From positions 1,302,001-1,366,000 of the forward strand of contig NW_024881520.1 of assembly GCF_019059575.1 (NCBI RefSeq): 64,000 nt of DNA, written 5' to 3'. This stretch comes from Amphibalanus amphitrite. Its lineage: Eukaryota; Arthropoda; Thecostraca; Balanomorpha; Balanidae. Under the pieces are notes generated by a model that was not told the DNA's origin, searched no databases, and saw only the letters and a program-made list of their open reading frames with translations. Positions 17,353 through 49,005 of the stretch are shown here, piece after piece. Made by a program: the position numbers and the translations under genes. How positions within the stretch are numbered: position 1 is the stretch's first letter; every line of letters starts with the position of its first letter.

Positions 17353-17536
17353 GTACTCGTAGTGCCATGCCAGTTGCCACTTAACGATCTTCAGAACGAA
17401 CGATGGAACTTTACTTGGCAAAACATGTTTTTGATTAATATGACCAGAACAAAACAAGTAATGTCAAAATGTATTTTAGGAAGTACCGTGATTTCAGGCA
17501 AGAGACTACTGAACATATTTCTGGCGCGTAACTCAC

Positions 17537-18805
17537 CTTGACCTTCTCCTTGGTGATGGCAGTGTCGGTGACGTCCTTCTTGGTGACCAGTCCGTGGCCC
17601 GTGTTCACCACAGCCTGGTACTCGGGGCGCTGTGCCTCCGCCTGGCGGGAGATCTCGTCCACCTTGGCCGTGTACGCCTCCACGTTCAGCTTGCTGGTCT
17701 CGTTGGATTCCACCAGCTCGAAGACCTCAACGAACCATTGATCGAGGCGCTCCGTCTTGGTCCAGAAGGTATCCAGCTGAGAGGAAACCTCGTCCAGGAG
17801 CACGCCGCGCTCGTGACACTTGGTCCTGAGCTTGTAGAAGCGCGTGGTGAGGTCCGTGAGCTTCTGTTCGATCTTTTTGGCGATGCGCGCGTTGGACGGC
17901 GTCTGGAGGAGATCCTCCGCACTGCGCTGGATCTGCTCCACACTGGCCTGGTGCTGGTCGATGTCAGCCTGCAGAACACGCTGCTCCTGCAGCTGCTCGG
18001 TCAGCCGTTCCCGGTTCAGACTGGCCGGCTTCAGGATACCCTTCAGCCGCGTCTCGGCCTGCGTCAGCCAGGTCATCAGCGAGTCGAGGCCGTCCTGGAC
18101 GCCCTGGGACTGCACCAGAGCCATGTCCAGCGCCTGGCAGCGGTCGGTGACGGCGTCCGAGAGGCGACGGTACTTGTCCGCCAGCTCCTCCGGCGGTCGG
18201 CTGATGCGCTCACTCTCCTTGGGACCAATCTGGCCCTCGAGCGACTTGACCAGCTGTGCGGCCGACAGTGTGGCGTTGTCGAACAGCTTACCCTGCGCCA
18301 GGACATCCGTGCTGAGGGTACGCGCCCGGTCCAGCTGCTCCTGAACTCCGCGCGGCTCAGCAGCCACCGGCTCGTTGACCACCTTCTCGGCACGGGGCTC
18401 GGCCTCTCGCAGCCAGCGCTCGGCACGCTCCAGGGCCTCCTGGTACTCGCGCTGCCGGCTGCCGATGCTGGAGAGCTTGTCGGCCAGCTTGTTGGCACGG
18501 CTCAGCAGGTCCTGGAAGGTCTGGGTGACCTCCGCGACCTCCTGTTTGACTAGGTACTCGTGGGGCTCGATGTGGCCCAGTCGCTGTGGCAGCGACGTAC
18601 GGAACTCATTGAGCGTTTTCAGATATTCCTTGGACTCGTCAATGAACTTCTGCGCTGCCACAGTGATGAAGCGCAGATCGGCCTGGTGGGCGATCACGTC
18701 GTTGACGAAGTCCTTGCAGGTCTGCTCGTTGGCTTTGAGCTTGTTGAGGTCGGAGAGCAGCCGCTCCTTGTCCACCAGAGTGCGGGACGCGCTCGATAGC
18801 CAGGT
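17537..18805 (-). CDS. shot: Spectraplakin exon: block of spectrin repeats before the hinge
   Basis: This 423-codon, phase-0 exon has the acceptor TTTCTCCTCCAG and the donor GTCAAG|GTGAGT. It encodes TWLSSASRTLVDKERLLSDL, then about four spectrin repeats with Trp positions ALERAERWLREAEPR, SLMTWLTQAETRL and ERLDQWFVEVFEL. It forms the proximal rod just after the plakin-repeat region. Confidence 0.95.
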
Positions 18806-19045
18806 CTGGAGGAGAAAGGCGGGAAAACATTCAGAACCCGATACTGAGAGCCACTCATTGGATGAGGGAGAAGGAGGGACATCAGTAAACAATGACAACC
18901 AGAACAAACAAATCTGAGACTGATAGCCTTAAACTTAGTTTATGAGGAATCACCAATAATTGTTATGAAATTATTACCATGTAGTAAGTACCAAGACAAT
19001 CCGACAAACCCAGGTAGCCGATGGTCTCATCAGAGTCACACCTAC

Positions 19046-20112: not shown

Positions 20113-20884
20113 CTGTAAGTCACCGCACCAAACGAGGGTCAGGTTGAGGGCTCGGCTGCAGTGCGTCGACACACTGACACACAGTAAGGACACAGACCAT
20201 CGCGCAAACGCACCTAACTGAACAGTACAGCCCGGATATAACGCTAAAACAGACTCATATTGTCCTGCTTCAATTGAAGAGTTATTTAAAAGGCATGCAG
20301 TTAGTACATATTTCATAAAAATATGCATATGCAATTATTAAGAGCAGTAAAAAACGTTACTATTTACACAAAAGTAGCATTACCTTCACCATGCAATGAC
20401 ATCAGACCACATTATGTTTCATGCATTATCACAAGCGGTCAAAACAATCCAGAACGACGCACAAAACAAAACTCTTGTCATGCATAACGAAACTACGTCC
20501 ATGCCTTCTATGAGGTTAGGCTCACGCATAACTCGTCAGTCAGAACACAAACACGTTAAGCTTAAAGCGTGACGATGCTACAGTCATGCATTAGTCTTCA
20601 GGGGTGCCTGCTAGGCTGTTAGTACAGGGCCTGACTATGGACATTTTCTTGCCCCAGTGCAGGAGTCAAGCAAGCTTCACTCAGTGGTCAGCCAACAAGC
20701 CGTGCACCACTAAAGCTTCCTCTACGGCTCCCCAGGGACGCGCTGGTTGGCGGCAGGGTGGCTTCACAGCACCGACGGACCAGGTTAGTATCGAAGGCGG
20801 CGATGGCGGCGTTAGGACGGCGACCAAGCGGCGCTCGAAGGCAGGCCGTCGGGCGGGCGGCGTCGGGCACCGCGCGCCCCTTAC
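20113..20884. other. Intron after the giant exon
   Basis: This 772-bp intron has a GTAAGG donor at 20883-20884. The giant exon's frame stays open another 68 codons past the donor before a stop. Intron retention would therefore give a truncated plakin-repeat protein ending in a Pro/Arg-rich tail. No other feature was recognised. Confidence 0.7.
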
Positions 20885-23800
20885 CCTGGTCTCGGCCGGC
20901 ACCAGCAGGCCGAGCCGGTGCGCCTCCACGATGTTGATGAAGTGGTCCACCTGGCGGACGTCGCCGGCGTTCGGCGTCACCAGGCCCTCCTCGATGGCGG
21001 CCAGCAGGTGGTGCAGCCGGTCCGTGAGCGGGTCGCGCACCAGCACCGTGGTCGGGTCGATCAGACCGCGATCAATGGCCTCCGACAGGGGGATGGGGCG
21101 GTCCGTGAACGGATCAACGAACCGCTCCCGGTCCAGGTCGTACAGATCACTGTCGAGCGCCTCCAGCACCGAGAAACAGTAGCGCGGCGTTACGATGACT
21201 CCCTCCTTGATGGCTTGCTCCAGTGTCAGGAAGTGGCCGGTGGTAGTGTCCAGCACCATACCCTTGTCCTCTTCGATCAGACCCTGCTCGAAGGCTGCCG
21301 GCAGACGCACCAGACGCGCCCGCTTCGTATCCTTCAGCAGAACTGTGTTGGGATCCAGAAGACCCAGGTCGAACGCCTTTTTCAATGTGACTGCCTGGCG
21401 CGAGCTAGGCTCGATGTAGCGCGCGTGTTGCACGTTCAGGGAGCCGTTGTCGATAGCCTCTTGGAAGGCCACTGGCGGACGCAGGTACAGCATGGTACGC
21501 CCCTCAAACAAAATCAACTGCGGCGACAGGCGACCGGGGCTGATGTCAATCATGGCGCGGTGTTTCGGCTCGATCAGTCCGTCCGTGATGGCCTGCTTCA
21601 GCGGCCGCAGCTCCTTGGTGGTCGGATCCATCACGACGGCCGTCTCCGGGTTGATGATGAGCTCCTTGATCGCCTCCTCCAGGCTGTAGTTGACGAGGTT
21701 TTCGCGGTCCGAGGGTCGCGCTGAGTAGGCCATCGTCGCCTCCTGCTTCATGATGTGCTCTACATTGACTACCTCCTCGGGTGACACATCTTCCGTTACC
21801 AGCAGCTCGCGGTCGAAAGCCACGCTGTAGTTGTAAGCACGCTTGGTGAAGGTGTCAATTACGCGGCCCTTGTTGGTCTGGATGTTGCCCTCTTTGATCG
21901 CCGTGAGCAGGCGCTTGTGCTTGCCTTGGACGGTATCGTTGAACTTCGTCGTTTTTCCACAGAGCAACCCACGCTGAATACCGTCATGAAGATCCAGATT
22001 GTCACCCGTATTGGGGTCAGAGAACTTTCCGGAGTCCAGATGACACAGCTGGTATTTGATTGCGTCCTTGATGCGCAAAGGTCGCTCACTAGGCACGATA
22101 TACCGCAGCTTCTTGGCTTCGATCATGGTGATCTTCTCGCGGGTGCCTGGCACTACGTACCAGCCGTTCTTTGCGTCAACAAGCTCATCCTTGACGGCGT
22201 CAGTGAAGCTTAGGAAACGGCCAGTTTTGGCGTGTTTCACCGGAGAACGCTTAGGATCGAGCAGGTGGTGTTTCACAGCGTCCTCCAGGGTCAGCTTCCG
22301 ACCGGTGCGCGGCTGCACGATCTTACCGGTCTGTGGGTCATAGAAGCCCATGTGCACCAGGTTGTAGAGACTCATCGGCTTCTCGAAGTCAATGATGAAG
22401 CCCTTTCGAAGCGCCTCGCTCAGAGAGATGTCGTAGCCAGTCTTGGGATGGCGGAAGGTTCCTCGGCGGCGATCGATAATGCCTGCGCGACACGTCTCGT
22501 TGAGGTTCAGCAGACGCTCCTCCTCCGTGTCAAAGTAGCACGGCAGGCCTGGATTGATGATGAAGCGCTTGATGATATCGTGGAGGCTCACCTTCCATCC
22601 CGAGACCGAGTCAGTGAAGCGGCCTGTCTCATCATCGTACATACCGTCCTTGATGGCCTGCTGCAGGGAGAGCGAGTGCCGACTGTCAACGACCAGCCCG
22701 ACTTCAAACGCCTCCTGCAGCGAGTAGTCACTGTGGGTCTCGAAGTTCTTCACGCGAGCGGTGTCGGGTTCCACAAGACGACGGCGCATCGCCTCCAGAA
22801 TGTCGACGTTCTTCCAGAAGCCGCGAATCGTGTCGCGCACGAGCACAGACTTCTCGTCCAGGATGCCACGCTCATCGACAGCTTCCAGCAGCGTCAGCCA
22901 GTCGCCCGTCGTCGGGTCGAAGAATAGGCCAGTGTCCTCATCATAAACGCCCTTCTGGATAGCGTCTTTGATTGACATCGGCAGTTCAACATCCGATATG
23001 AACCCTTCTTTGAACGCCTCATTCAACGGCATGCGACGTGTTTTGTCTGGACAATACACGCCCGTTGTTCCGTTGATTATGCCCTCACGAAGAGCACGCG
23101 GGAAGCTAAGCACACGGTTTTTGCGGTCGTCACGCACAATCGTGCACGAAACATCAATCAGGCGGATCTTAATGGCGCGCTCGACAGTGAACGTCTCATG
23201 CGTGTCTGGCTCAGAGACACGGCCAGTTCGCGGATCGTACATGTTCTTTTCGAACACTTCTCGGAGTGGCACACGTTTGGGAGGCGGGAGCAGCACCTGG
23301 TGCTCCATGGCCTCAGCCAGATTGATTTCCTCTCCCGAGCGGGGGTCTGTCACCGCTCCCGACACCGGATCCAGGAAACCGCGCTCAATTGTCTCAAGGA
23401 GGTTCAGCACCTCGTTGGTGTCCGGATGCTTCATGGTCTCAGCAAAGGTGTTAATCTCAGTGCGAACAATAGCCTCCTCGATTGTCACACGCTCTTTCGT
23501 GCGGAAAATAATCAGATGGCCAGTAGCCCGTTCGTACAGTTCTTTTTCGACGAACTCCTGCAATGCCAAAGGAGGCTTGCGCTCGGCCAGCATGCCCTGA
23601 TCGAAGGCACGATCCAGCGGCACATCGTGGTCTGGCTGGCGAATAACGCCACGCTCTGTGTCCACCAGGCCAGCACGCACGGCTCGGTCGTAAGTGTGGA
23701 TAACCTTAGTCTCCACATCCACCACAATGATCGACTCGACATTGATGATTTTCAGTTCAACAGCTTGTTGGAGTGTCACATCTTCACCACTCGCCGGATC

Positions 23801-26800
23801 AATGATCTTTCCAGTGTCTGGTTCGTACAGGCCCATCTGAACAGCGTCAGTGAGATCAACTGGCATAGGCTTTGTCCAGATCATACCCTCACGATAGGCG
23901 CTGTCGAGTGGCTTGCTATGACCGCTTCGGGTGTCAGTCACTTGGCCAGTTGTGATATCCACCAAGCGTGTGGTGATAGCTCGTTCCAGCGTCACAGACT
24001 CGTTCTTCTGCGTGTCCTTGATCTGTGATGATTCCGAATCGATCAGCTGCCGGTGAATAGCTTCGTCGAGTTTGACGGGTTCGTCGGTACCCGGCACAAT
24101 GATCCGGCCGGTGCCGGGATGGTACAGCTTGCGACGGATGACGGCCTCCAGCGACATGGGCACGCGTCGGGGGATGATGATTCCCTTGTTCAAAGCCTGT
24201 GCCATAGGCATGTCCCTGTTGTGGTCGATGTCCTTCACAACACCGTCAAGGAGGTCGATCAGTCCATTTTCTTCAGCCTGCATCGCTGGTATGTACTCGT
24301 TGGAGTTCTTGTCAATCACCAACACTGTATCGAGGTTCACGATACCCCTTCGGAAAGTTTCGTCAAGTGGCATTGGCTTATCATAGCCAGGCACACTCAC
24401 AGTACCGCGCTTGGGACTGTACCATCCCTTGTCAACGACTCGACTGAGCGGGATCTTCGTTGGCTTCTCGTCTTCTGGCTTCACTAAGCCTTCTTTGACT
24501 GCACGGAAGAAGCTCACTGTCTCACGAGTCTCGGTGTCATACACGTCACCTGTCTCGGCATCAACGAGCTGCTGCTCGATCGCCTCGTCCATTGGCATGT
24601 AACGATTTGATTGCAAGTCAAGCACACGAATCGCTTCAGCCGGCATGATTCCAAGGGTCACCAGAGACTTGAAACTAACGTGCTCCTGCGTGTCTGGGTT
24701 GATGAAGCGGCCACTGTCAGGTTCGTAAATGCCTGCCTCGACAGCAGACACGGGCCGCATCAGACGACGCACAATCGTTGATACCTCTTCTACCAGCACA
24801 ACCTCCGTACGGCTCATGACCATAACAACACTTTCTAGCGACATGATTTTCTTGGAAATGATATCACGCACAGGAATTCGCTTGTCTGTTGCCGGAATGA
24901 TTAGCACACAGCGATTCGGTTCAATCTGATCTTCGTCAATCGCCTCTTGGAGTGTCACTTTGGGACGTTTTGGCAGCTGAGTATACTTAACTTGCTTGAC
25001 TGTGACAAATGTTTCCGGTTCCTTGGCCGGTTCCACCTCATGTGTGAGTCGGGACGTTTTTGTGGGCGATCGCCTCTCTGGTTCAGACAAATCTCCATCT
25101 TTCTGTGCACGAGGACGACTCGGCTCCTCCTTAGATGGGCGTCGGCGAGGGGACTCTTCATCACTTGGCTGCCGCTTGTAAGGCTTAGCTCGGCTCGGAG
25201 AGGGACGAGACGGCTCATCCTTGGAAGGACGCCTCCGAGACGGTTCTTCTTTCGAAGGAGCTTTGTGATGAGGTTCTTCCTTAGTCAGGTCACGAGACGC
25301 ATCCTCTTTAGTTGGCGATCTTCGGAAAGGTTCGCCCTTGGTTGAAGGCTTCCGAGATGGCTCTTCTTCAGATGGAGAACGACGGCTAATATCCTTGCTT
25401 GGCGTCTTTCTAGATGGCTCTTCTTTGCTGGGAGACCGTCGCAATTGATCATCCTTTGTCGGATATTTGCTAGAGGGCTCATCCTTCGCAGATGATTTGC
25501 GTGTAACGGGCTCCTTTGGTCTTCTGGATGACACAACTATCGACACTTCTTCCAGCAAAATAATTTCAAGTCGACTGACTACCTCAACAACGCTGTCGAG
25601 CGACATAATCTTCTTTGAGATAATATCGTCCACGGGGATGCGTTTCCCAGTATTGGGGACCACAAGCGTACACCGTTTTGGCTCGATTTCATCAGCACAT
25701 ATGGCCTCCTCAATAGTCATTCTGGGCTTTTTCGGAAGTTGCGAATATTTGCCTGGTTTTCTGACGCTTTGTGAGGGAACTTCATCGAGTGGTGTCTTGC
25801 GAGAAGGCTCCATTGTTTTCGATGTTTTAGGATATCGCTCGGTTTCTGGCGTAGGCACCTCTTCTTGCTTGTCATCCTTACCGATCGGCTTGTCCATTTC
25901 AGAAGGCTTCCTGCCTGGTTCCCTAAATGGTGCTGTCACAGACGGCTCGTCTTTGGGAGATAGTTCACCATTACGCTCCGCTGGTCGCGTGCTTGATGGC
26001 TTTGTATCCGTTGGATATTCGTCCGATGGTTTACCCTTGACGGGCGATTTGCGGCCGGGCTTCTCTTCCGAAGGAGCTCGGCGCCCGGGCTCAGTCTCTG
26101 ATACTGGCTTTCGGGAGGGTTCTTTTCTTGTGGAAGACAGCAAAGCAGACACTTCTTCGATAAGTGTGATGTCTGTCCTGCTGATGACCTCGACTACGCT
26201 CTCCAATGACATAATTTTCTTTGAGACAATGTCACGCACTGGAATCCGCCTTCCAGTGGCAGGAACAACTAGAGTACAGCGCTCCGGCTCTATTTCATCG
26301 GCACATATCGCCTCTTCGATGGTCATTTGTTTGCTCTTGGGAATACGAGGTTGTGGTCTGGGTTTCGGGGCGCTGCGTTCTTTTGGCAACTGATCTTCGG
26401 GCTCTTCTTTTGAATCGAAAGGTGAATCGTCTTTGGGTTTTTCATCTTCACGCTTCTTGACAGCCTTCTTGGCAAAGTCAACCAGCGACTGTCCTTTAGG
26501 AATGTTGATATCGACTGAAGCGATGAGCCCCTGCTTGATTGCTTCATCCAGCGGTGTCTTCCGCCCAGTCCTGGGGTTCGTGACGTCGCCGGTGACAGGA
26601 TCAATCTTCCTCTTGTCCATGCCGTCTGCGACCGTATATGTGGTGCCAGTATTCACTTCAACAACCACGGAGTACTTGTCAATAATCTTCTTTTCTGTGG
26701 TATCTTTAAGAGTCAGCGGTCGGCCCGACTTGGGATCCCGGAAGCGTTTGTTCTTTTTGTCGTAAATGGTGAGACCAGCCTGAACCAGGTCCATGGGTGT

Positions 26801-29800
26801 CTTGAACTGCTCGTTCGGCTCAAGAATGTCTGTTGGTTTGAGGACACCCTTCTCAATCGCATCGGTCAGGGGCATTTTTTCTCCAGTGTGAGGGTCAGTG
26901 TACGTCTTGGTCTTGAAACAGATCAGTCCCTTCTTAACGGCTTCAGTGAAGGACATCTTTATTTCACGCGTAGTATATTCTTCTACAGTCTCATCATCGT
27001 CTTTCACAATGCCCTTCTCTCTAGCCTCATCGATTGATATGATCTTTCCCGTCTTCAGGTTCTTCACTTGGTCAGGTCCATGCAAGATGTGACCTGCAGT
27101 CAACTGAATAGTTCGAGTGGTGATGGTGTGATACTGTGTCAGTGTCTCCGTGATTCCATCACATGGTGCCAGCAGTTCATCATCTGGGCTGACGGGCTTG
27201 ATGCGAATCAGACCGTTCTCGACCGCCTTTCCTATCGGCATCACTTCGTTGTTCTTGGGATGCCTGAACGTCTTTTTCTTCACATCAATCAGATTCTGGT
27301 CGAGAGCATCCATCAAATCGACAGCATCCGGACTCAATGGGAATGGGAGAACCATCAATATGTCCTGATCAATGGCAATCTCCAGGGGAACCATTTCCTT
27401 GGTGACGTTGTTGAGAAGTTCCTTTTTCTTCGGCTCTATGTAGCCTCGCTCAACAGCCACTGGGAATGTGATGCCAAGAGGAGGAAGGTCATCATTTAGG
27501 GCGTATGTGCTCCAATCAAAGAAACCTTCATTGTGAGCTTCAGAAATGGTTTTTGGACGATCTTCCGAACGGATTTCATTGGTTTCAGGGTTGATGAAAC
27601 CTCGCTCTATAGCTTCCTGCAAGGTGATTGGTTCTTCAGTTGCGCCAAGCACCCTCGATAGCGGGTCCAGGATTTCGCAAATCAGAGCTTCTTCGATCGT
27701 GAGCTCGGCACCAGTCTCAGGGTGAATAATGCGCTGTGTGCGAGGGTTGAAGAGACCCTGATCCATAACGTCCGGGAAAGTGAGACACCTCGCCACCGGG
27801 ATCAGCAGGTTACCCCGATAGATGTCAATAACTCCACGCTCTATGGCTTGCTCAATCGTCAGGTCTTCTCCCTTCAAAGGGTCTTTGATGTTGCCTGTCG
27901 TTGAATCAACCTTGCCGGTCTTGATCGCATCTAAGAGGGTGCATGGCTTCCCCCTGCTATCTTTGAAGCTGTCCGGGTTATCCAGAACATCAGCGGTGTC
28001 TTCATCAATGAGATTGCGGTCCACTGCATCTTTTGGTTTAACAACCCTTCTCCGAACCTTCTGCAGGATGATTGGCTTCCCTTCTTCGGCTTCGATGGAT
28101 TTTGCTCTGCCGATGGTTACACTGAACTTTGGCTCAGAGATTCTGCGCATTGGCCTCTGTCCCCGAGTGCCTGGCTCTTCAGTTGGTGTCTGAGGCATCT
28201 GACCCTGTGATAGTTCTTTGGCATCCTCAGGGGTTATTAAACCCTTTTCAACAGCCTCCTCGAGTGGAACTTCCTCACCAGTCCTTGGGTCACGAACGAT
28301 GATAGAAGTTTCGATTAACTGAGAATCATAAGTGATTTGGCCATCGGCTCCATCCACATAACCTTCCGCGGCATATTGGTCAAACGTCTCCTGGTCGATA
28401 ACACCTCTCTCAAGTGCTTCTTCCAGAGTGATTTCTTCGCCGGTTTGAGGATGTACAACAAGAGCCTTCTTTACCTTCTTGGTAGTGACTCCTCGCTTCA
28501 CAATTTCAGCTACATGCATATCATCCCCATCAGTTGTGGTGTAATACTTGAGCACCTCTTCGCCGCCCCTGTCCGGAGACTGAGATGGTCTAATCGGTCG
28601 CTGCTCCACCGGTCTGGGCTCCTTAGACGGGGACTTGCGTCCTGGACGATCCGGCTTGTCATCTCCTGGGCGTCCAGGTCTATCTCCTGAAGGTTTCGGC
28701 TTTGCATCGGATGTCCGCCGGGGTCTGCCATTCTCTGGCTTGTCTGGCCGTTCAGTAATGTATCGTGACGTAACGGTAGTTCGTTTGGTTGAGTGAACAG
28801 AGCTATCGGGGGAAGCCCGGTCCGGCGACTCATCACCAGGGTACCCCGGCTTTTTAGTGAAGGGTTTCGTGAGCGATTCTTTCTCTGGTGATTTGTCACT
28901 CGGTCGCCGGGGCCGATCACCCTCCGGATAGCGCGATTTATCATCAGGTCGTCGAGGTCTATCATCTCGGGGACGATCTGGACTAACATCACTCAGACGA
29001 GCGGGCTTGTCTGTCCCAGGGCGGCCAGGCTCGTCATCTGCAGGACGAGACTGATCCTCTCTGATGTCGCGCGGTTGTTCGTCTCTCGGACGGCTTGGCT
29101 TATCTCCAGGACGACGAGGTTTATCACCTGGGCGTCTAGGCTTGTCATCGCCTGGACGTCTGGGTCTGTCTTCTCCCGGGCGGCTGGGTTTATCGTCTCC
29201 CGGACGACTTGGTTTGTCATCTCTCGGGCGGCTAGGTTTGTCATCACCTGGATGTCTGGGTTCGTCGTCTCCCGGACGTCTGGGTTTGTCGTCTCCGGGA
29301 CGCCTGGGCTTGTCGTCTCCCGGACGAATTGGTTCGTCGTCTCCCGGACGTTTGGGCTTGTCGTCTCCAGGGCGCCTGGGTTTGTCGTCTCCGGGACGCC
29401 TGGGCTTGTCGTCTCCCGGACGGCTTGGTTTATCGTATCCCGGACGACTTGGTTCGTCGTCTCTCGGACGTCTGGGTTTGTCGTCTCCAGGGCGCCTGGG
29501 TTTGTCGTCTCCGGGACGCCTGGGTTTGTCGTCTCCAGGGCGCTGGGGTTTGCCGTCTCCAGGGTGCTTGGGTTTGTCGTCTCCCGGACGTTTGGGTTTG
29601 TCGTCTCCAGGGCGTCTGGGTTTGTCGTCTCCCGGACGGCTGGGTTTATCGTCGCCCGGACGACTTGGTTTGTCATCTCCCGAGCGGCTTGGCTTGTCGT
29701 CTCCAGGGCGCCTGGGTCTGTCGTCTCCCGGGCGACTTTCATCGCCAGGGCGTCCTGGCTTTGCGTCTCCGGGGCGACCAGGCTTGACCTCGTCAGGACG

Positions 29801-32800
29801 TTTCGGTCTACCAGGTTCAGTTTTCTCAGGTGACCTGCTTGCGGTTCGTGGTGTTGGCGTGGTCCTCGTAGATTTACCAGGACTGTCGGGACGTTTTTTA
29901 GCAGGATATTCGTCGTCAGGACGACTCTTTGCCGGTGAACGATCAGGAGAATCATCAAGTCGTTCCGGTTTGTCATCACCAGGGCGCTTAGGTTTGCCAT
30001 CAACACGATCGGGCCGTTTATCGCTGGGACGTCCTGGTTTGTCGTCATCCGGTTGTTTCCGGTCTGGCGATTCGTCTGGTGATTTTTCACCAGGGCGCTT
30101 CGGTTTATGCTGCCCTGGTCGTTCTGGTTTTTCGTCACCAGGGCGACGTGGTTTCCCTCCAGAACCTACAGGTGGATCATCTTCGGGACGTTTTGTCCCA
30201 TCACCGGGACGTTTTGGCCTTTCATCGATCGGTCGACGCGGCTTTTCATCATCAGGACGCTTTGGTTTGCCATCGCCTGGCTTTCTTGGCTTATCGTCTT
30301 CTGGCCTTTTCTCGGGGGATCGGCTGGTGTACCTAGAGGTCACAGTTGTTGTAGTTCTGGAGTATCCCTCGGGACTTTCAGGCCGCCTATCATCAGGAGA
30401 ATCGTCGATGGGACCCTCCTTCAAAGGCTTCCTCGGAGAACGATCACTAGGTAGATCATCAACAGGCCTCTTGGGCTTATCACCACGTCGAGGACGATCC
30501 AAAGAATCGTGTGGTCGACTAGGCTCATCATCTTGAGGGCTTTCAATTTGTGCAGTGAACGTTGACGTTACTGTAGTCCTGGTCGTACGAGTGGTACGGC
30601 GTTCCGGACTTTCAGGACGGTCGTCAGGCGAGTCTTCGCCAGGCTGACCAGGTTGACTGGATTTGTCTATCGGACTTCTCGGCTTCGCATCATCAGGGCG
30701 TTGTGTGCCAGGCCGTGATGTAACCGTGGTTGTTTTTGTCGTCCGTGTTGTATAATCATCAGGACTCTTCGGACGCTTGCGATCAGGTGATGTATCGCCA
30801 GGTCTCCCAGGTCGTCCGGCTGAAGGTTTGGTCGGCGATTCACCTCTTGGAGAGCTGTCGCCTGGTCGTTTTGGCTTGTCCAGTCCTGGCCGTCCAGGTT
30901 TCTCGTCATCAGGACGGCGCCCCGGTCTTCCATCCTTCGGACGACTGGGTTTTTCATCATCAGGACCGACTGGCTTTTGAGAGCCGGGACGGCCGGGCTT
31001 ATCTTCACGAGGACTAGGCCGGTCTTTCACGGGGCTACCAGGTTTGATGTCTCGCGGACGCGATGGCTTATCAATATCTGGGGACTCTGGTTTGTCGCGA
31101 CTGATGCGCTTTGGTTTTTCATCTGTGGGATGGCGACGCTTATCATCCGCAGGTTGTTTGGACTTATCAGGCTTTTCAGGAGATCTGCTTGTAACTCTCG
31201 TTGTAACAGTTGTTGTTTTCTTAGTGAGTCCAGAAGGGCTTTCGGGTCGTCTTTTATCCGGAGAATCTTCAGCCGGACGCCGTTCCGACGGCCTAGAGCG
31301 AGAAGGGCTCTGATCACCAGGCTGTCTTGGACGATCATCAGGTTCACTAGGACGACTCTCAGGCTGATCTGGATATTCAGTCGTATAATGCGATGTTATC
31401 GTTGTTCGAGTTCTAGACGTGTACTGGTCAAGAGTGTCAGGCGACTTGCGTCCGGGTCGCCCTGGCTCATCGTCTGTAGGAAGATACGGTTTTGGTTTAC
31501 CGTCCTTTGGTACATCTCCCGGGCGTTTGGGCTTACCATCGTCCGGCACATCTTCTGGACGCCGTGGCCGATCATCCTCTGGCTCATCCGGATATCCCGC
31601 TGTGTAACGCGATGTCACAGTTGTCTTTGTTGTCCTATATGTACATCGATCAGGACTTTCGGGAGACTCGCCTCTTGGCCGGTCCGGATGTGACCTACCA
31701 GGAGAGTCATCACCTGGTCGACCTGGGCGAGCTGGACTACCTTTGGATGGTCTCCTATAGGTAGGAGTACCTTCATCAGGTGATGTGTCACCAGGACGTC
31801 TTGGACGGTCACTAGCAGGCTGTTTGGGACTCTCATCGCCCGGCTTTTCAGGATATTGCGTTGTTTGTCGTGATGTAACGGTTGTGCGAGTTGTGCGGGT
31901 TGTAAAACGATCAGGGCTTTCTGGAGACCTATCTCTAGGTCGACCAGCCTTTGACTGCCCCGGCTTGTCTGGACTATCCTTTCTGATATCATCTGGCTTT
32001 TCCCTCAGATACCTGGGCTTGTCATCATCTGGTACGTCTCCTGGACGTCGAGGCCTACCATCTTCTGGCTCGTCTGGATATTCCGTTGCATACCGTGAAG
32101 TAACAATAGTTCTGGTGGTTCTAGCGGTGTAAATGTCAGTGTCATCCGGGGATTTACGTTCCGGTCTGTCCGGTTGGTCACCATCGTCATGGCCAGTAGG
32201 CTTATCATCAATCGGGCGCCTCGGAGAGGAATCTTGGGGCTCGTCGGGGCCTACACCGATGTAACGTGAGGTAACGGTCGTTGTAGTTCGTGTAATACCA
32301 CGGTCAGGACTTTCAGGAGATTCGCCCCTTGGCCGGCCAGGTCGGTCAACGTCATGGGGTCGTCTTGGCTCCGGTTTAGGGCGGTCACCAAAACGTTTAG
32401 GTCTATCTTCATCCGGCCGATCTGGCTCCTCTGGGCGGCTTGGCTTCCTTGGCTCACGCTCATGGGGTTCACCTGGGTATCGTCTGGTAAAGCTTGATGT
32501 AACAGTAGTCCTCGTTTGTGAAGTGTATCTTTCAGGGCTCTCGGGACGTTCTCTGTCTGGAGAATCACTCAATCGACCCGGTTGTCCTGGAGCACCCTTT
32601 GATGGCCTTCTGACTGGTTCACGTTTAGGTGATTCGTCACCAGGACGACCAGGCTTGTCATCTCCAGGACGTCTGGGACTAGTGTCACCGGTACGTCTAG
32701 GCTTGTCATCCTCAGGATGTCCGAACCTGGCACCACTGGGACGTCTGGGCTTATCATCTTCTTGGTCCTCAGGCTGATCTTCACAAGGACGTCTTGGTTT

Positions 32801-35800
32801 CTTATCCCCCGGACGACTAGGGCTAGCTTCATAGGGACGTCTGGGTTTTGATTCAGATGGACGTGATGGTTTTCTATCACCAGGTTCATCGTCATCGGGC
32901 TGATCAGGCTTCTCAGGGTATTCAGTCGTAAAGCGCGAGGTTACGATTGTCTTGGTGCTTCGAGTAGTGTAGCGCTCTGGACTTTCAGGAGACTCGCCCC
33001 TTGAACGAACTGGCCTTTCACGCCCTGGTTTCTCATCTGAAGGAAGTCGCGGCTCATCGTCTCCAGGACGACCCGGCTCGTCATCCCCTGGACGTCTGGG
33101 TTTGTCATCCCCTGGACGTCTGGGTTTGTCATCCCCTGGACGTTTGGGTTTGTCATCTCCTGGACGTCTGGGTTTGTCATCTCCTGGACGGCGGGGTTTA
33201 TCATCCCCTGGACGGCGGGGTTTCTCATCCTCTGGACGTCGGGGTTTGCCATCAACTGGACGACCCGGCTCATCGTCTCCAGGACGACTCGGCTCGTCAT
33301 CCCCTGGACGTCTGGGTTTGTCATCTCCTGGACGTCTGGGTTTGTCATCCCCTGGACGTCTGGGTTTGTCATCCCCTGGACGGCGGGGTTTGTCCTTATC
33401 TGGCTGATCAGGATAATCGGTGGTATACCGTGAAGTGATAGTTCTCGTCACCGTTTTGGTGTAAGAGCGAGGACTTTCTGGGCGTTCTCTGTCTGGATAA
33501 TCGTCATCAGGTTGTTCAGGGGATGGCCTTCTAGGAGACCCCGCATCGGGTGATTTGTCTTTAGGGCGACGGGGCTGCTCATCACGAGGCCGATCCGGCC
33601 TGGTAACACCGGGGCGTTCCGAATGACTATCTCTGGGACGTTCAGGCTTGTCATCGTCTCCAGTATGTTCAGGGCTCCTGTCACCTGGGCGTCTGGGTTT
33701 ATCTTCACCCGGATGTCCTGGCTTATCCTCTCCTGGGCGTTTAGGACTGGTATCACCCGGACGTCTGGGCTTGTCATCTCCCGGGCGGCCAGGTTTGCTA
33801 TACAATGGCCGTTTAGGACTAGTGTCGCTAGGACGTCGAGGCCTGTCATCTCTCGGACGGACTGGCTCATCGTCACCAGGGCGTTCAGGACTGGTGTCTC
33901 CTGGGCGTCTAGGTTGATCCTCTCCTGGACGACTTGTCTTGCGCTTGGGACTGGTGTCCACAGGACGTTTAGGTTTGTCATCTTTAGGACGGCCTGGCTC
34001 GTCGTCTCTAGGACGATCTGGCTTACCATCTCCCGGACGGTCTGGTTTGCTGTCTCCCGGGCGTTTAGGACTGGTGTCCCTAGGTCGACTAGGTTTATCA
34101 TCTCCCGGACGATCCCGCTTCCCATCTTGAGGGCGTTTAGGACTAGTGTCACCAGGACGTCTAGGCTTGTCATCTCCCGGACGGTCTGGTTTGCCATCTC
34201 CTGGGCGTCTAGGTTTGACATCTCCTGGACGGTCTGGCTTGCTATCTCCTGGTCGTTTAGGACTGGTGTCCCCAGGACGTCGGGGCCTGTCATCTCCTGG
34301 ACGATCTGGCCTGACGTCGCCTGGTCGTTTAGGACTAGTGTCACCAGGACGTCTGGGCTTATCATCTCCTGGACGATCTGGCCTGTTATCTCCTGGCCGT
34401 CTAGGACTGGCGTCACTAGGGCGTCTAGGTTTGTCATCTCCTGGACGATCTGGCTTGCTATCTCCTGGACGATCTGGCTGGCTATCTCCTGGCCGTCTAG
34501 GACTGGCGTCACTAGGGCGTCTAGGTTTGTCACCTCCTGGACGGTCTGGCTTGCTATCTCCAGGGCGTTTAGGGCTAGCGTCACCAGGACGTTTTGGCTT
34601 GTCATCTCCTGGACGATCTGGCCTCCTTTCTCCAGGACGTTTAGGACTGGTGTCACCAGGACGTTTAGGGCTGGTGTCACCAGAGCGTGTAGGGCTCTCA
34701 GGGCGTTTAGGCCTGCGACTGGTGTCGCTAGGGTATCTGTGCTTATCTTCCGGTGCCTCCGGATGTTCATCCCCAGGAGCTTTTGGTTTCCTATCCTCTG
34801 GACGATCGGGGCTTCTGTCGCCGGGTCGTTTGGGTGAAGTGTCCGGTGAGCGTAGAGGACGCTGAGGCTCATCGTCAGGCTGATCAGGGTATCCAGTCGT
34901 ATAGCGCGAAGTTACAGTAGTCCTAGTTGTTCGAGTGGTGAAACGGTCTGGACTTTCTGGAGACTCGACTCTTGGTCGAGACGGCCTGCCACTAACAGGA
35001 TGTGCAGGTTCATCATCTGAAGGACGTCGCGGCTTATCGTCTTTAGGGCGACCCGGATTGTCGTCTCTAGGACGGCGGGAATCGTCATCCCCAAGTCTGG
35101 GTTTGTCATCTCCTGGACGCCTAGGTTTGTCATCTCTCGGACGTCTGGTTTTGTCATCACCAGGACGCCTGGGTTTGTCATCTCCAGGACGTCTGGGTTC
35201 GTCATCTCCAGGGAGTCTGGGTTTTTCATCTCCCGGACGTCGGGGTTTGTCATCCCTCGGATGACTGGGTCTATCGCCTGCAGGACGGCTAGGTTTACCA
35301 TCACTGGGTCGTCTGGGTTCATCTCCAGGACGCCTGGGTTTGTCATCTCCCGGACGTCTGGGTTTGTCATCTTCAGGCTCATCTGGATATTCCGTGGTAA
35401 AGCGTGAAGTGACGGTTGTTCTGGTCACTGTTTGACTGTAAGAGCGAGGGCTTTCCGGTCGGTCCATATCTGGAGAGTCATCGTCGGGCTGTCCAGGTCT
35501 TCTTGGAACACCCCTCTCTGGCCTTTTAGTAGATACGTCATCGGGTGATTTGTCTCTCGGCCTGTCGCCTGTGTCATCAGGGCGTCCAGGTTTTTCTTCC
35601 TTTGGATGTCTAGGTTTGTCGTCTCTAGGACTTCTTGGCTCATCTCCAGGACGTCCCGGTTTGCTATCTCCAGGACGCCGTGGTCTAGTATCCCCAGGAC
35701 GCTTGGGCTTATCATCTTTGCGCTTTGGTTCATATTCTTCGACCTTTGGCTGATCGTCGCCAGTACGTGGAAACCTATCTCCAGGACGCCTCGGTTTATC

Positions 35801-38800
35801 GTGCTTCGGTTCATCAGGAGTTTTGCTGGTGTACCTAGACGTAACGGTTGTTGTGGTTGTAGTTTTTGTATAGTCATCAGGACTCTGTGGTCTCTCATCA
35901 GGTGATTTATCCTTTGGACGCCCAGGACGTCGAGGACTTCCCTTTGATGGTCTCCTCGGAGATCGATCGTCGGGAGACCTGTCACCAGGCCGACCAGGTT
36001 GATCATCACCAGATGTCGGACTAGAACTGTCAGGACGAGGCTGATCAGATCCAGGTTGTTCTGGTTTCTTATCTCTAGGAAGAGATGGCTCCTTTTCACC
36101 ACGACGCTTGGGCTGTCTGCGCGTAGGACTATCTGGCCTATCGTCCTCAGGACGAACTGGCTTACTGGCCCCAGGACTATCCTTTGGCTGATCCGGATAA
36201 TCAGTTGTATACCGAGAAGTAACAATTGTTCTTGTTGTCTTTGTGGTGTAGCGATCGGGGCTAGTTGATTTCGGCCTGTCAGGAGAATCATCATGAGGAC
36301 GGACAGGACGTCCGGAACTGTCCTTCAACGGTCTCTCAGGAGAAGTATCGGTGGGAGATTCGTCACCGGGGTGGCGAGGCTTATCCATGCTAGGCTTCTT
36401 TGTCCGATCTCCAGGCCTGACAGGCTTGTCGTCGGCAGGTTGCCTATCAGGACTTTCATCTGGCGAGCTCTTCGATACCCTAGGACGTTCTGGTACGTCC
36501 TTCGAAGGACGTCGAGACGGCTCGTCTTTGAGGGGCTTGTCACCTTTCTTCGGCTTGTCACTACCGGACCGGCCCGGTTTTTCAGCGGGTTGTTTCGGCT
36601 TGTCACCTGGCCGGCTTGGCTTGGAATCACTGGGCCTTCTAGGCTTGGGCTTTTCGTCCTCTGGCTTAGATATTTTGGATAGATACCGCTCTGTAATAGA
36701 GGATGTCCGCTTCGTGGGCGATTTTGGCTCACGGTCAGACGGAATTCCGGCTGCCGGTCGGTCTTCGGGGGGCACCCGATCACTGGGCCGCCTTGAGGGT
36801 GGACTCCGGGTCCGACCAGGTTGCTGTGGTTCTCGAGGCTCCCGATCAGATGGAAGACCAGCAGCGGGCAGGTCTTCGGGAGCCACTCGATCACTGGGAC
36901 GCCTGGGGTGCTGACGAGGCTCGCCGCGGTCCGGAGAACGAGGCCTGTCATCGGACGAGTATCGAGTAGTGTACACAGAGCGTGTCGTATGCGTTGTGTA
37001 TTGACCTGGCTCAGGTTCATCTGGCCGCGGATGTTTCGGCTCCTTCTCATCAGGACGATAGTCACCGGGGCGTTTAGGGCGCCGCTCGTCTTCTGGTTCA
37101 TCTTCCGGCTCCTCAACTGGACGCCCATCGACATAGCGAATGACTCGCGTGGTGGTGGTGCGAGTAGTTCGCGTCGATCCTGGGCGGTGATCATCATCCT
37201 CTGGCTCATCTTCTGGCCCCTCCACACGTTTACCATTGACATACCGAACGGTGCGGGTTGTGTACCGCGCGGTACGAGACGTGCCTGGGTGGTCGTCATC
37301 GTCATCGGGCTCCTCCTCTACCGGTTGACCGTCCACATATCGGATGGTGCGACGCGTGGTGGTGGTTCGGGTTGTTTGCGTAGTGCTGCCGTCATCGCTC
37401 CGCCGTGTGGTGTAGTAGCGGGTGGTGTACTGCTCCGGCTCGTCGGGCTCCTCCGGCTCGCCTACGCTGGTGACGTAGCGAGTGGTGAATTGAGGCGTAC
37501 GAGTGACGTGCCGCCGCGTCTGCGTGGTGAACTCTGTATGATAGCGCGGCTCATCCGGTTCTTCCTCTGTGGGCGCATCGAACACAAGTTCGGTATAGCT
37601 GCGGGGTTGTCCGGGCTCACGTGGCTTGTAGATGCGAATAACATCTGTCTGGTCGACAATGCGTCGGATCTCGATAATGCGCGTGCGGTGCACTACGGTT
37701 CGAGTGGTCTTCTCGATCTTGATTATTCCACGTTCAATAACCTCCTTCAGCGGAATACGTCGGGTGCCGTCTACAAACTGGCCGTGCGGATCAAGGGTAC
37801 CTTGTTCCAACGCTTCCTCCAGATCCAGTGGTCGTCCATGTGGTTTGGTTGGCTCACGAAGAGTAGCAGATGTCTTATCAATGATGCGCAGGGTAACGCA
37901 TTGTTCAAATGTGATGACTCGGTCCGATCCTGGGAAAATGAAAGTGCCAGACACGGGATCCAGGTAATTCTTTCGGATAACTTCGTCAAGATACCAGCCA
38001 TCTTCAGGCATTTCCACCTCCAAAGCATCAACGGGTTCAGCTTCCTCTTGTCGCGGAGGAGTGTCTTCATGTGGACGGCGAGTGAAGAATTTGATTTTGC
38101 TGCGAACATCATCCTCTGGACGTAGCCGCTTCTTATCAGGACTGGGCTCACGTTCCAGCGGATGCTTTGGGGCACTACTGGTCTTCGTGAGTCGAACCGA
38201 CTTGAACTCGGGTTCATCGTCCATCGGCTGCACTCGCCGAGGTTCCGGGTCCTCCTTCGGCTCAGGCTTCTTCTTACGAGGAGCACGCTCACCAGGCCGT
38301 GGGCGGCGGCGTGGCGCTTCTGGTTCATCATCATCGATCTCATAGTACTTGCGTGGCTTGCCAGGTTGTTCAGGCTCATAAACGCGCACTTGGTCCGGCT
38401 CTCCAACGATTTCGATGATCTCAACTGTGCGGACGAGCCTAACCTGGGTACGTCGAACTTCAGTGCGTACGAACTTCCTCTCTATTGCCTCTTCCATGGT
38501 GTACTGCTTCCCGTTCACGATGTACCGACCTTGATGATCCAGCACACCTTTATCTAGTGCTTCTTCAATATCCAAAGGTTTCTTGCTTTCAGGATCTTCC
38601 ACCTTAGCCGATTTACGGTCAATAATTTTCAGTGTAACACACTCTTCGAATGGGATAACTCGGTCAGCTTCGGGGAAGGCAAAGATACAGCGACGCGGGT
38701 CATAGTAATTCATGCGAATGACTTCGTCCAGGTACCATCCATCCTCGGGCATCTCAAGGACTGTAGTGGTCTCTTCCTCCTCGTCTTCATGAACAGTCGG

Positions 38801-41138
38801 TGCGTCCGGAGGTCCAGTGGTCCTCCGTCGGCGCACAGTGCGCTTCATCACGTACTTGCGCACTGTGGTCACTGTAGTTTCCTCCACGTCATCTCGTGGC
38901 CGGCGCGCCACGCGCTTGTAGATCTTGGTGGTTGTTTCGGGCTCGTCCTCGTAACTGGAGCGCACAATGCGCGTGGTGCGTGTAGTTCTCTCGTACCCAT
39001 CGCCGGGCTGTGCCGGCGATCCGGGCGCATCCTCAGCCGGTATCGGCTCGGCTGACCAGTCGCGCAGGCGTTTGGGCGGCGAGGTGGCGCGGTCGGGCGT
39101 CGGTCGCTTCTCTCCAGTGCGCGTCACGTATGTGCGGTACGTGCGCGTCGTGGTCGAGGTGCTGCTGGAGCGGGGAGCATACGGACGACCGGGCTCGTAG
39201 TCGGCCGGCACTTCCTCCAGCAGACCGTCCCGCACCGCCTCGTCCAGAGGCATTCTCTGGTTACTGGATGGTACCACAAACTCGCTGCGCGTCTCGTCAA
39301 TGTATCCACGTCGAATCGCTTCATCGAAGGGCATTGGTGCCGACTGGCCATCGGAGGTCACCGTCACGTACCGCTTGATGGTCTTCGTGACGGTAGCCGT
39401 AGTGACGGTGATGTTGAGCATGCTCTTGAGCAGGGAGGCGCCCTCCAGGGTGATGCAGCGCCTGCGGACGGCCTCTTCGAGCGGCATGGGCTCCAGGGTG
39501 TCAGGGTCAGTCACCTGGCCCGTCTGGGGGTTCAGCCGCTGTCGGAGCACCGACCTAAACACAGTCAGTTCGTGATCGCCGTCGTGGATTCCGATCGGAC
39601 GAGAGAGCATCTCGTTGATCTGCGGTTGGATGTATCGCTGCACGACCGCCTCGTCCAGCGGGATCGAGCGACCGCTCTTGCTGTCGCGGAATTCGCCGGT
39701 GGTGCGGTTGACAATGCCTTTGGTCAGCGCCACGTTCAGACTGACGTAGTCGCCAGTATCCGGGTCCTTGATGCCGTCAATGTCGAATATGGTCTTTGTG
39801 GACACAGACGTGATGAGTCCACGGTTCACAGCCTCGCTCAATGAGAACACATCGTCAGTCTGCGGGTCACGGAACTTGCCCTCGGGCAAAACGATCCGCT
39901 CGGCGAAGGCCTGGGGCAACGTCAGAAGCTGTGCCGTTGACAGGTTCGTCACACATTTCAGCTGCGTATCGACGATACCTCGGCGCACAGCCTCCAGAAG
40001 CGTCACGCGCTCCTTCGTCACCAGGTCGTAGATGGTGCCGGACGTCTCCATCCTGCCACCATCGTGGATGTCCTTCAGTGTCAGAGGTCGGCAGAGCATG
40101 TACTGTTTCACGGCGTCAATGAGCAGCATCCGTTTGCGGGTCTTCTTGTCGATGAATCGTCCCTGATCTGGCTTGATGATACCTTGCTGGATGGCTTCAT
40201 TGACGGTAACCTTTACACCTGTGTCTGTATTCAAAACCTCATGAATGTTTGGGTTGATGAGACCACGCGAGATAGCCTCCTGCAGCTGTAGTTTTTCGCC
40301 ACGGTTTCGATCCTCAAATGTGCCAGTAACGTAGTCAACAAGTCCCTGCTGCACGGCGTCCGACAGCGAGACACCGCACATGCGGGTGTAATCGTGCGCC
40401 AGTGACAGCAGACCCCTGTCGAACGCCTCCGGGAGCGGGTAGCGCCGGCCCGAGTCGGGATCGGTCACCTGGCCGCTGTCGGTGTCCACTTGGCCGGCGA
40501 TGACGGCCTCCAGCAGTGTGGGCCGGTCGGAGGCCGACGGCTCCTCACTTACCTGACGCGGCCGCTCGGCGGCAGCCGGGCCGACAAACATGCTCTCCTG
40601 CGGGTCCATCAGGCCGTCCATCATGGCCTCCAGCAGCGTCAGCGGCCGGTCCGACCTGCCGTCGAACACGCCCGACCGCTGGTGCATGAGCTGGCGCAGA
40701 GAGGTGTCCAGCAGACCGACGTCCACCGCCTCGTCGACCGAGTGGCGCGCGCCCGTCGACGGGTGCACGAAGCAGCCGCGGCGCGGCTCGAACAGACGCC
40801 GCCGCGTGGCCTCACCCAGAGTGAGCGCCTCGCCCGTCTCCGGGTGGGTGACGCCGGCCACGTTTAGCAGCTGGCCCGCGGCGCCGTCCGCCTCGATCCG
40901 GTACGAGTGGGTACGGACCGAGCGCGAGCTGCTCTCAGTGACGGGCGCGCCGCTGCTCGAGCTCGAGTAGGTGTAGGAGCGGACCTGGCGCGACACAGTG
41001 GTCTCGCCTCCATCCGGGCTGGAGTAGCTGTAGGAGGTGGATGAAGTGTGCGGCTCCATCTCGCCCTCGGTGACCATCGAGGTCACGTAGCTGCCCTCCT
41101 GCTCCGGGTCCGTGGATCCGCCTTGCGACGTGACATAT
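20885..41138 (-). CDS. shot: Spectraplakin giant exon: plakin repeats with huge proline-rich linker
   Basis: A single 20,254-nt exon gives about 6,751 codons without a stop. The acceptor TGTGTCCACAG precedes 41138 and the donor ACCAGG|GTAAGG follows 20885. It enters with one base (AG+A = Arg with exon 56395-56516) and leaves in phase 0. Order, with residues counted from the exon start: Ser/Tyr-rich head (1-85); plakin repeats (about 87-640; motifs such as TLLEAVRRGIVD); two MPEDGWYLDEVI modules (about 794-913 and 1041-1163); repetitive linker (about 1166-4190); plakin repeats (4195-4936); three EEAICADEIEP modules with KEEPSRR linkers (4938-5460); then a dense plakin-repeat block to the end (DPxTGxxLTLxEAIxxGLID). 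Plakin repeats bind intermediate filaments in desmoplakin/plectin; arthropods lack most cytoplasmic intermediate filaments, so the role here is open. This fits the plakin-repeat isoforms of Shot, but the linker is exceptional. Confidence 0.93.
20890..24765 (-). other. shot: Plakin-repeat block 3 (within giant exon)
   Basis: About 1,290 residues of closely packed plakin repeats (on the order of 30 units) with little linker. Examples are EPDTGKIIDPASGEDVTLQQ, DPRTGRVSEPDTHETFTVE, QPRTGRKLTLEDAVKHHLLD and DPFTDRPIPLSEAIDRGLID. It ends directly at the donor that leads into the spectrin rod. Confidence 0.9.
24760..26328 (-). other. shot: Three EEAICADEIEP modules with charged linkers (within giant exon)
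   Basis: Three near-identical modules of about 65 residues begin at about 26325, 25720 and 24957: MTIEEAICADEIEPERCTL, the same with EPKRCTL, and VTLQEAIDEDQIEPNRCVL. Each continues VPxTxxRIPVxDIxSKKIMSL and SVVEVxSRxxIxLIEEVS. Two linkers of about 130-180 residues separate them; the second is a tandem of PSKEEPSRR-type units (about 25000-25500). The third module runs straight into plakin-repeat block 3. Confidence 0.85.
26330..28555 (-). other. shot: Plakin-repeat block 2 (within giant exon)
   Basis: About 740 residues start at EEVLKYYTTTDGDDMHVAEI. They contain plakin repeats such as HPQTGEEITLEEALERGVID, DPRTGEEVPLEEAVEKGLI, DPHTGEKMPLTDAIEKGVL and NPRTGRKTPLDEAIKQGLI. The block ends in a basic PKPRPQPRIPKSK stretch. 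Confidence 0.88.
28560..37640 (-). repeat. shot: Coding minisatellite: RPGDDKPR proline-rich linker
   Basis: About 3,030 codons are dominated by an eight-residue unit, consensus RPGDDKPR, encoded by a 24-bp tandem repeat. Variants carry SPKRPGDT, KPDRPGDS and EPGRPGDD. The densest tracts are 29100-29750, 33060-33400, 33650-34710 and 35100-35380. About 18 times the array is broken by a Thr/Arg/Tyr motif (TTRTTRTTVTSRYTTEYPD-like), usually preceded by SPESPDR. Composition is Pro, Arg, Lys, Asp, Gly with balanced charge and almost no hydrophobics, so an extended disordered chain is expected. The frame is intact throughout. The third codon position is less GC-rich (AAA, CCA, GAT, AGA) than in the spectrin exons. 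Confidence 0.92.
37650..38757 (-). other. shot: Duplicated MPEDGWYLDEVI module (within giant exon)
   Basis: Two similar modules of about 120 residues begin MPEDGWYLDEVIRMNYYDPR (about 38757) and MPEDGWYLDEVIRKNYLDP (about 38015). Each runs through FPxxDRVIxFEECVTLxIIDxxSA, PLDxEEALxxGxLDxxGxxV and a hydrophobic TVEIIEI or RTRIIEI end. They contain divergent plakin repeats preceded by a conserved Trp-containing entry motif. An acidic/basic linker with PRRRPRPGERAPRKKKPEP-like sequence separates them. Confidence 0.8.
39215..40880 (-). other. shot: Plakin-repeat block 1 (within giant exon)
   Basis: About 555 residues carry roughly 14 tandem plakin repeats. The recurring core is [DN]P-x-[TS]G followed by [LV]-[TPS]-L-x-EA[VI]-x-x-G-[LIV]-[IVL]-[DN]. 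Examples are DPDSGRRYPLPEAFDRGLL, DPDTGDYVSLNVALTKGIV and DPDTLEPMPLEEAVRRRCI. Spacing is about 38 residues, the family norm. Confidence 0.88.
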
Positions 41139-41314
41139 CTGTGGACACATACCGGAGGGTGTGGTCAGAAACAGCCGAGAGTAAGGGCACAGCCGGCGGT
41201 ACGGTCACATACCACAGATGGCAGCACAGTCACAAATGGTCGGTTGGCAACACCATCGGAAAACTGAGAATGAACACATCAAGCAAGACAAGAAAACACG
41301 ATAAGATTTTTTTT

Positions 41315-48508: not shown

Positions 48509-48520
48509 AAGCGCAAAGTG

Positions 48521-48670
48521 GCCGAGGCGTCGGCAGCGGACCAGGTGTGTAGTGAAGACAGAGTGGCCGAGGCGTCGGCAGCGGACCAGGTGTGTAGTGA
48601 AGACAGAGTAGCCGAGGCGTCGGCAGCGGACCAGGTGTGTAGTGTAAACAGAGTAGCCGAGGCGTCGGCG
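48521..48670. repeat. 45-bp minisatellite, four copies
   Basis: Copies start at 48521, 48566, 48611 and 48656 with the core GCCGAGGCGTCGGCAGCGGA. The 45-bp period keeps several frames open without any gene being implied. It belongs to the same family as the array at 49490-51550. Confidence 0.93.
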
Positions 48671-49005
48671 CCGGACCGGATGTATGCGTATGTCGATGCA
48701 GAAATACGGAGGCGGCCACTTAGAAAATACTTGAGACCTTTTTACAAAGAGACTCCTTGAGTGCTAAACCGAGCCTCCAAGGTGACTGGCTGAGATGTGT
48801 TTCTGCGGCAGCGTATGTCCATCAAGTTGCGTTCGGAAGCGCTTCTCGAAATGCGTGGTCTGTTTTGACAAGGGGCATTATCCTAAAGCTGGTCTCTGAG
48901 GCAAAAAAAAAGAGATGCTGTTTTCCAGTCCCGGCGAAGAAAAAAAAAAGAATGTCGAGTTGCAGAGCAGCCGAGGCGTCGGCGGCGAACCTGTTGTATA
49001 TGTAT

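Follow-up and report, generated by a model that had tools for sequence, protein, structure and literature searches.

Shot-PH, the plakin-repeat isoform of Drosophila Shot, is described as a protein without F-actin binding that is neuronally enriched and whose plakin-repeat region (PRR) is functionally unexplored (PMC9320987). According to work on spectraplakin evolution, the linkers between plectin modules vary in length, and arthropods are without cytoplasmic intermediate filaments, to which plakin repeats bind (PMC9145010). Here, we describe a stretch of 64,000 nucleotides from Amphibalanus amphitrite (Arthropoda; Thecostraca; NCBI RefSeq assembly GCF_019059575.1, contig NW_024881520.1, positions 1,302,001–1,366,000), hereafter the window, whose own coordinates are used throughout. 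On its minus strand lies a spectraplakin gene with a linker core of 2,912 residues between two plakin-repeat blocks, rich in proline and in charges of both signs. An earlier note on this DNA had proposed a linker of about 3,000 residues at 28560–37640; the observation is confirmed, and the interpretation given with it is partly supported.

The linker is part of a single open frame of 6,827 codons (20681–41164, minus strand), in which plakin repeats are followed by the linker and then by more plakin repeats, with spectrin repeats encoded downstream. Plectin repeats (PF00681) score 210 bits in the first 1,200 residues (37565–41164) and 342 bits in the last 2,627 residues (20684–28564), so that the linker joins two plakin-repeat domains in frame, as had been proposed. 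Spectrin repeats (PF00435) were found in three downstream open reading frames (ORFs; 17438–18928, 12825–15176 and 2630–4999). Most of the proteins retrieved with the C-terminal plakin part as query came from arthropods and bore the names Shot, dystonin or MACF1; molluscs, annelids and nematodes contributed a small number, and identities were 21–36%. Plakin repeats, spectrin repeats and Shot/dystonin/MACF1 relatives together identify the gene as a spectraplakin, in agreement with the earlier note, and by these relatives it is an arthropod Shot-type spectraplakin. Additionally, the plakin part after the linker matched desmoplakin and periplakin chains in a search of solved structures. The CH and plakin domains at the N terminus of a spectraplakin, and its C-terminal EF-hand and GAS2 domains, would be expected to lie beyond the window.

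The linker core, defined by an 80-residue window with at most 10% FILMVWYC, spans residues 1309–4220 of the frame (28505–37240, minus strand), close to both ends first given for it. Its main constituents are Pro (20.5%), Arg (16.6%), Asp (15.2%), Lys (8.5%), Ser (8.4%), Gly (7.8%), Thr (6.7%) and Glu (6.0%), with a charged fraction of 0.464. Opposite charges are nearly balanced, as had been claimed, with a slight basic excess (net +111 overall, +0.038 per residue), and they are mixed about as in shuffled sequences (delta 0.0712 versus 0.0755 ± 0.0034; kappa-like value 0.155 versus 0.164). The mean hydropathy of 0.253 lies below the charge–hydropathy disorder boundary of 0.427; all 57 linker windows of 100 residues fall under their own boundary, whereas each of the three plakin blocks tested exceeds its own. 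With a charged fraction above 0.35, a net charge near 0, mixed charges and low hydropathy, the linker is of the strong, well-mixed polyampholyte type and is, by its composition, disordered. Hydrophobic residues, which had been said to be absent, are sparse (161 VIFYLMW in the 2,801 residues from residue 1420 on, 70 of them within the Thr-rich strips described below). The linker contains no EB1-type SxIP site and has no Pfam family at E values up to 10 and no relative among solved structures at E 0.01.

Periodicity is marked. Residue identity at a lag of 8 is 0.327, compared with 0.068–0.164 at lags 1–7, and further peaks occur at 16, 24, 32 and 40; the tetrapeptide RPGD is found 88 times (shuffle mean 1.2) and DDKPRRPG 23 times (0.0 in shuffles). 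Strict octads, defined by the pattern P....P..P, number 171 and have the consensus PGDDKPRR, with 22 exact copies, 129 different octads and a mean net charge of +0.49. The RPGDDKPR-type octads originally noticed are therefore real, but in strict form they account for 1,368 of the 2,912 residues, beside 17 Thr-rich strips. Similarly, the linker is as proline-rich as had been reported, but its prolines are spaced alternately by 5 and 3 residues (237 and 234 cases) rather than by three to four. At the DNA level, Tandem Repeats Finder recovered a 24-bp unit in several arrays at 69–86% match, the longest with 25 copies at 80% match (29133–29731, minus strand) and the second with 13.1 copies at 86% match (33080–33394, minus strand). 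Self matches extend up to 995 bases at 64–79% identity among the 40 longest, which indicates duplication of larger blocks in addition to that of the octad.

The proposal of a coding minisatellite is borne out. Between 28565 and 37564, the coding frame has no stop in 3,000 codons, versus 19, 396, 39, 53 and 139 stops in the other five frames. The ratio of replacement to silent divergence (pN/pS), calculated from octad pairs that share 18 or more of their 24 bases, a filter that caps both kinds of divergence equally, is 0.23, 0.30 and 0.26 at lags of one, two and three octads, and silent divergence between octads is 0.47. Neighboring octads differ by 49, 42 and 180 changes at codon positions 1, 2 and 3, and wrong-frame controls at the same lag gave pN/pS values of 1.87 and 2.55. 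Because the differences are mainly silent, the linker is best regarded as selected coding sequence; an intron or a chance ORF is rejected on the stop counts and the pN/pS controls. On these figures, the linker is old in large part and kept at the amino-acid level.

Three protein searches (set length ranges, most words shared; 705, 2,740 and 7,965 candidates scored) provided the 167 homologues used for comparison, and absence from them means absence from that retrieved list. The slot between two anchors, module A (residues 801–935) and block B (residues 4231–4460), is 22–524 residues long (median 128) in the 134 scorable homologues, many of which are isoforms or near relatives (many from Lepidoptera, Diptera and Hymenoptera) and not independent species. 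In the present frame, the slot measures 3,304 residues, a second copy of module A included, and the lineage specificity suggested earlier thus holds as to length. The other 33 homologues, including those of Homarus and Portunus and the nearest relative found (P0110), were dropped because an anchor was absent or weak, or because the two stood in the wrong order or at too great a distance. Nominal gaps among them are 3,752 (P0144), 3,229 (P0073), 1,992 (P0159), 1,749 (P0154) and 1,484 residues (P0158), and 594 in two Trichinella proteins (P0108 and P0109). Since the anchors are weak among many repeats, and no low-hydrophobic stretch is listed for P0073, P0144, P0154 or P0159 and only one of 122 residues for P0158, the large gaps are read as extra plakin repeats rather than linkers.

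The earlier suggestion to look for RPGDDKP-rich linkers in related spectraplakins was followed with the patterns RPGD[DEK] and DKP[RK]RP, which occur in none of the 167 homologues; nor does the strip pattern. The earlier note knew of no described spectraplakin with such an element, but the linker does have parallels: shorter repeat linkers built of other units exist in lobster, crab and tick proteins. In the same slot, Panulirus (P0003) has an array of approximately 12-residue units (length judged by eye), LPSEVKPEPSRD-like, and Homarus (P0025) has a stretch related to it; Portunus (P0134) has SPVKGEPSPRT-like units of approximately 11 residues (also by eye), and Petrolisthes has SPVK units. 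In Rhipicephalus appendiculatus (P0162), about 660 residues of irregular Pro- and charge-rich SPxK units (residues ~2188–2850) occupy the neighboring slot just before module A. Given these smaller arrays, the present linker carries to an extreme a tendency that recurs: it is exceptional in length, but elements of its kind appear to have arisen independently several times. No paper resembling a description of such a linker turned up in a literature search, judged from titles and the beginnings of abstracts, with subscription papers mostly outside its coverage.

Two of these homologues have further peculiarities. The Portunus trituberculatus protein P0134 is named in its source as the muscle M-line assembly protein unc-89, a name that its plakin repeats do not support; it appears to be a wrongly named piece of Shot that carries an SPVK repeat linker. 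In Rhynchophorus ferrugineus (P0053, residues ~1020–1370), the homologous slot is lengthened differently, by plakin-like units of the TDPKTGQ type that stand in tandem and have Thr-rich spacers.

The reading that we favor, at a probability of roughly 0.55, is that one variable inter-module slot grew by repeated duplication of the 24-bp unit and of larger blocks. The resulting 2,912-residue disordered polyampholyte, presumably present in the mRNA of the tissue where it acts, would work as a very long, soft and extended entropic tether, elastic or bristle-like. Such a tether would provide reach by holding the N-terminal plakin block at a distance from the remaining plakin repeats and from the spectrin rod, and its charge state could perhaps be shifted by proline-directed kinases. 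Entropic elasticity, as in titin PEVK, would accord with the linker's composition. For assumed persistence lengths of 0.5–1.2 nm, the core has a computed contour length of ~1.05 µm (~1,050 nm), a coiled size of ~32–50 nm and a spring constant of 0.005–0.012 pN/nm, values that favor a soft, long-reach tether or bristle.

Possible phosphorylation is suggested by 59 [ST]P.[KR] sites in the linker, versus 22.7 ± 4.6 in shuffles, none of 300 of which reached 59. Of 101 Ser/Thr-Pro sites, 59 have Lys or Arg at the second position following Pro, versus 181 of 497 other prolines (Fisher p = 5e-5, for sites that are not independent). An excess of [ST]P.[KR] was also seen in 13 of 15 hand-picked linker segments, this linker included (at most 8 of 300 shuffles reach the count), with enrichment in the Homarus, Portunus and tick linkers; the krill segment in this set precedes module A. 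The two segments without an excess are residues 5006–5145 of the present frame and the Panulirus slot. Basophilic sites, [RK][RK].[ST], show no enrichment in the linker (27 versus 27.4 in shuffles).

Several points weigh against the tether as proposed. Part of the [ST]P.[KR] excess may come from the octad pattern itself, which places Arg two positions after Pro, and the Panulirus slot is without any such site; the phosphorylation idea is therefore not general. Because Shot-PH is said to be without F-actin binding and its PRR to be unexplored, a spring between actin and microtubules cannot be assumed (PMC9320987). The ORF of P0110, with 87% identity across 2,565 aligned positions, begins at the first Met after the linker, so that this comparison covers the post-linker part only. 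Finally, a pure spacer leaves the Thr-rich strips unexplained.

The strips form a second tier in which the octads are interrupted by 17 copies of a sequence that reads roughly SPDRYTTRTTRTTVTSRYTTEYPDQPEDD. A model built from 13 copies found the other four (strips 1, 6, 9 and 13) independently, at 39.3, 42.0, 37.5 and 20.9 bits respectively; its 17 matches in the frame score at least 20.9 bits, strip 13 being the weakest, and the next best reaches 1.8 bits. All are on the minus strand; strips 1–6 lie at 36170–36289, 35789–35896, 35357–35464, 34859–34966, 33383–33487 and 32879–32995, strips 7–12 at 32447–32551, 32219–32323, 32048–32170, 31823–31930, 31562–31669 and 31343–31447, and strips 13–17 at 31151–31252, 30668–30778, 30518–30622, 30284–30388 and 28718–28831. 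Weak Thr-rich stretches just upstream (residues 715–743 and 1237–1417, at most 1.8 bits) may have been the source of the strips.

These strips are the strongest open point, since a simple spacer does not need them. They could instead be stickers, for a cytoskeletal or signaling partner or for each other, in a multivalent binding platform whose octads are spacers that set distances, a possibility that we take seriously while considering it rather unlikely. The 17 copies remain alike in protein although their silent sites are near saturation (pS 0.74, pN 0.30, ratio 0.41); however, they were picked and aligned on a [VI]TS core, which inflates this conservation. Their enrichment in Phe/Tyr (6.0% versus 0.9% outside) and Thr (20.7% versus 2.5%), their start-to-start spacing of 51–519 residues and the 59 [ST]P.[KR] sites of the linker are all consistent with stickers and spacers. 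On the other hand, the strip model has no convincing match in the 167 homologues (best 0.7 bits among the matches listed) and so does not point to a conserved partner, and no family or structure match gives the linker a name.

It is unlikely that the length of the linker is mostly a product of drift, with slippage extending a tolerant slot and selection removing only stops, frame shifts and hydrophobic changes, so that length itself would be without function. Such an origin would agree with the free variation of the slot among homologues, with the minisatellites that abound in neighboring non-coding DNA (48517–51387) and with three short linkers that diverge faster between the window and P0110 than the plakin parts do (215 of 365 columns identical versus 2,017 of 2,212). 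Drift does not account for the lasting amino-acid constraint that a pN/pS of 0.23 at a silent divergence of 0.47 indicates, for strips that persist near silent saturation, or for similar proline-rich, charged solutions in several other lineages. That the repeat is absent from the mature protein, because it is skipped or intron-like or because it arose in assembly, is highly improbable in view of the stop-free frame, the amino-acid-level constraint and the divergence of the 24-bp copies, which is unlike assembly stutter.

Beyond the tether itself, a bolder generalization can be put forward tentatively: arthropod spectraplakins may repeatedly evolve giant, phospho-tunable disordered springs from unrelated units in the same one or two slots. 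The present linker might then be the extreme form, a sticker-and-spacer cable of about 1 µm contour that carries a new Thr-rich binding motif in 17 copies and determines how far a microtubule-associated cross-linker can reach. That several lineages have filled the slot with different proline-rich, charged repeats suggests a role in mechanics or spacing. The slot repeats also offer concrete constructs for testing PRR function, and the extreme linker is a natural polyampholyte, other than titin, on which the dependence of elasticity on sequence can be studied comparatively.

The entire plakin-repeat region is predicted to be a single exon of 20,254 bp (20885–41138, minus strand; approximately 6,750 residues). 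Its predicted 5' acceptor is TGTGTCCACAG|ATATG, and its donor, read by eye, is ACCAGG|GTAAGG at 20885. The exon end is supported by the protein junction AETR|QAVIEK, which is similar to AEQR|QAVIEK of homologues (pattern matched in 15 of 167 proteins). All of the following features are on the minus strand. An N-terminal plakin-repeat block (residues 100–650, 39215–40867; PF00681, 36–47% identity among the matches listed) is followed by two copies of module A (residues 808–930, 38375–38743; residues 1050–1151, 37712–38017). The second copy matches the same stretch of homologues as the first and is therefore probably a duplication of it. The plakin block after the linker (26465–28474; PF00681), which includes the start of anchor B, is 94% identical to P0110, and its identity to each of the remaining 30 sequences in the tree is 24–42%. 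In the 32-row tree, the window groups with P0110 (100/100), and the long stem that they share falls outside three groups, one of krill and decapods, one that includes the insects and one of scorpions and ticks, with basal forks unresolved. Further along are two short Pro/Ser/Lys/Glu linkers between plakin modules (25730–26149 and 24986–25543) and the C-terminal plakin-repeat block (20945–24937), part of the 342-bit PF00681 region. Across 24986–26149, a plakin unit, TIEEAICADEIEP-like, is present in three near-copies with Pro/Ser/Lys/Glu linkers between them; these linkers, together with a third short one, are those compared with P0110 above. The downstream spectrin-repeat exons (2630–18928) presumably belong to the same gene.

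Other repeats are present in the window, whose GC content is 0.49–0.63 in 2-kb windows. A minisatellite cluster with units of 36, 49, 95 and 257 bp sharing GCCGAGGCGTCGGCGGCGGACCTGATG lies in a presumed upstream intron (49530–51387), and a related 45-bp array is found at 48517–48677. The hexamer CGGCTC forms two arrays (16520–16673 and 17223–17344), with a higher-order unit of 41 bp, apparently in introns between spectrin exons.

Compared with known systems, the gene is closest to Drosophila Shot-PH and other arthropod spectraplakins, with which it shares the gene family, the plakin blocks on either side of the slot and a similar spectrin junction. The Drosophila PRR is also in one exon, exon 12 of shot-RH (PMC9320987). 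Unlike other arthropod spectraplakins, the present gene has a slot far beyond their range, carries module A twice and has no DAAK.G-type module detectable by pattern, which is present in 44 of 167 homologues. The decapod and tick repeat linkers are similar in being tandem proline- and charge-rich arrays, in the same slot (Panulirus, Homarus and Portunus) or before module A (tick), but their repeat units differ, they are 79–663 residues long as cut by hand, and they contain neither the octad nor the strip patterns.

Neurofilament side-arms and microtubule-associated projection domains carry proline-directed kinase sites in a charged, disordered bristle, and the side-arms have dense KSP repeats on a coiled-coil filament protein. 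The present element is an internal linker rather than a tail, with no family match, and the neurofilament-like sequence once proposed for it is not supported: 10 KSP motifs in 2,912 residues and the plakin-repeat flanks rule out membership of the side-arms. Like titin PEVK, the linker is long, disordered, proline-rich, charged, repetitive and situated between folded domains, although it occupies one exon, compared with about a hundred. In a study of PEVK exons, the mean ratios per exon in mammals, Ala included, are 0.79 and 0.84, and the minimum ratio used is 0.54 (PMC6469411). In the present linker, P+E+V+K amounts to 0.37, Ala adds only 1.3%, and there is neither a PPAK motif nor a Pfam family, which rules out membership of titin PEVK; its composition, originally likened to PEVK, is instead rich in Asp and Arg. 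Thus, the linker may resemble PEVK in how it works, but not in membership.

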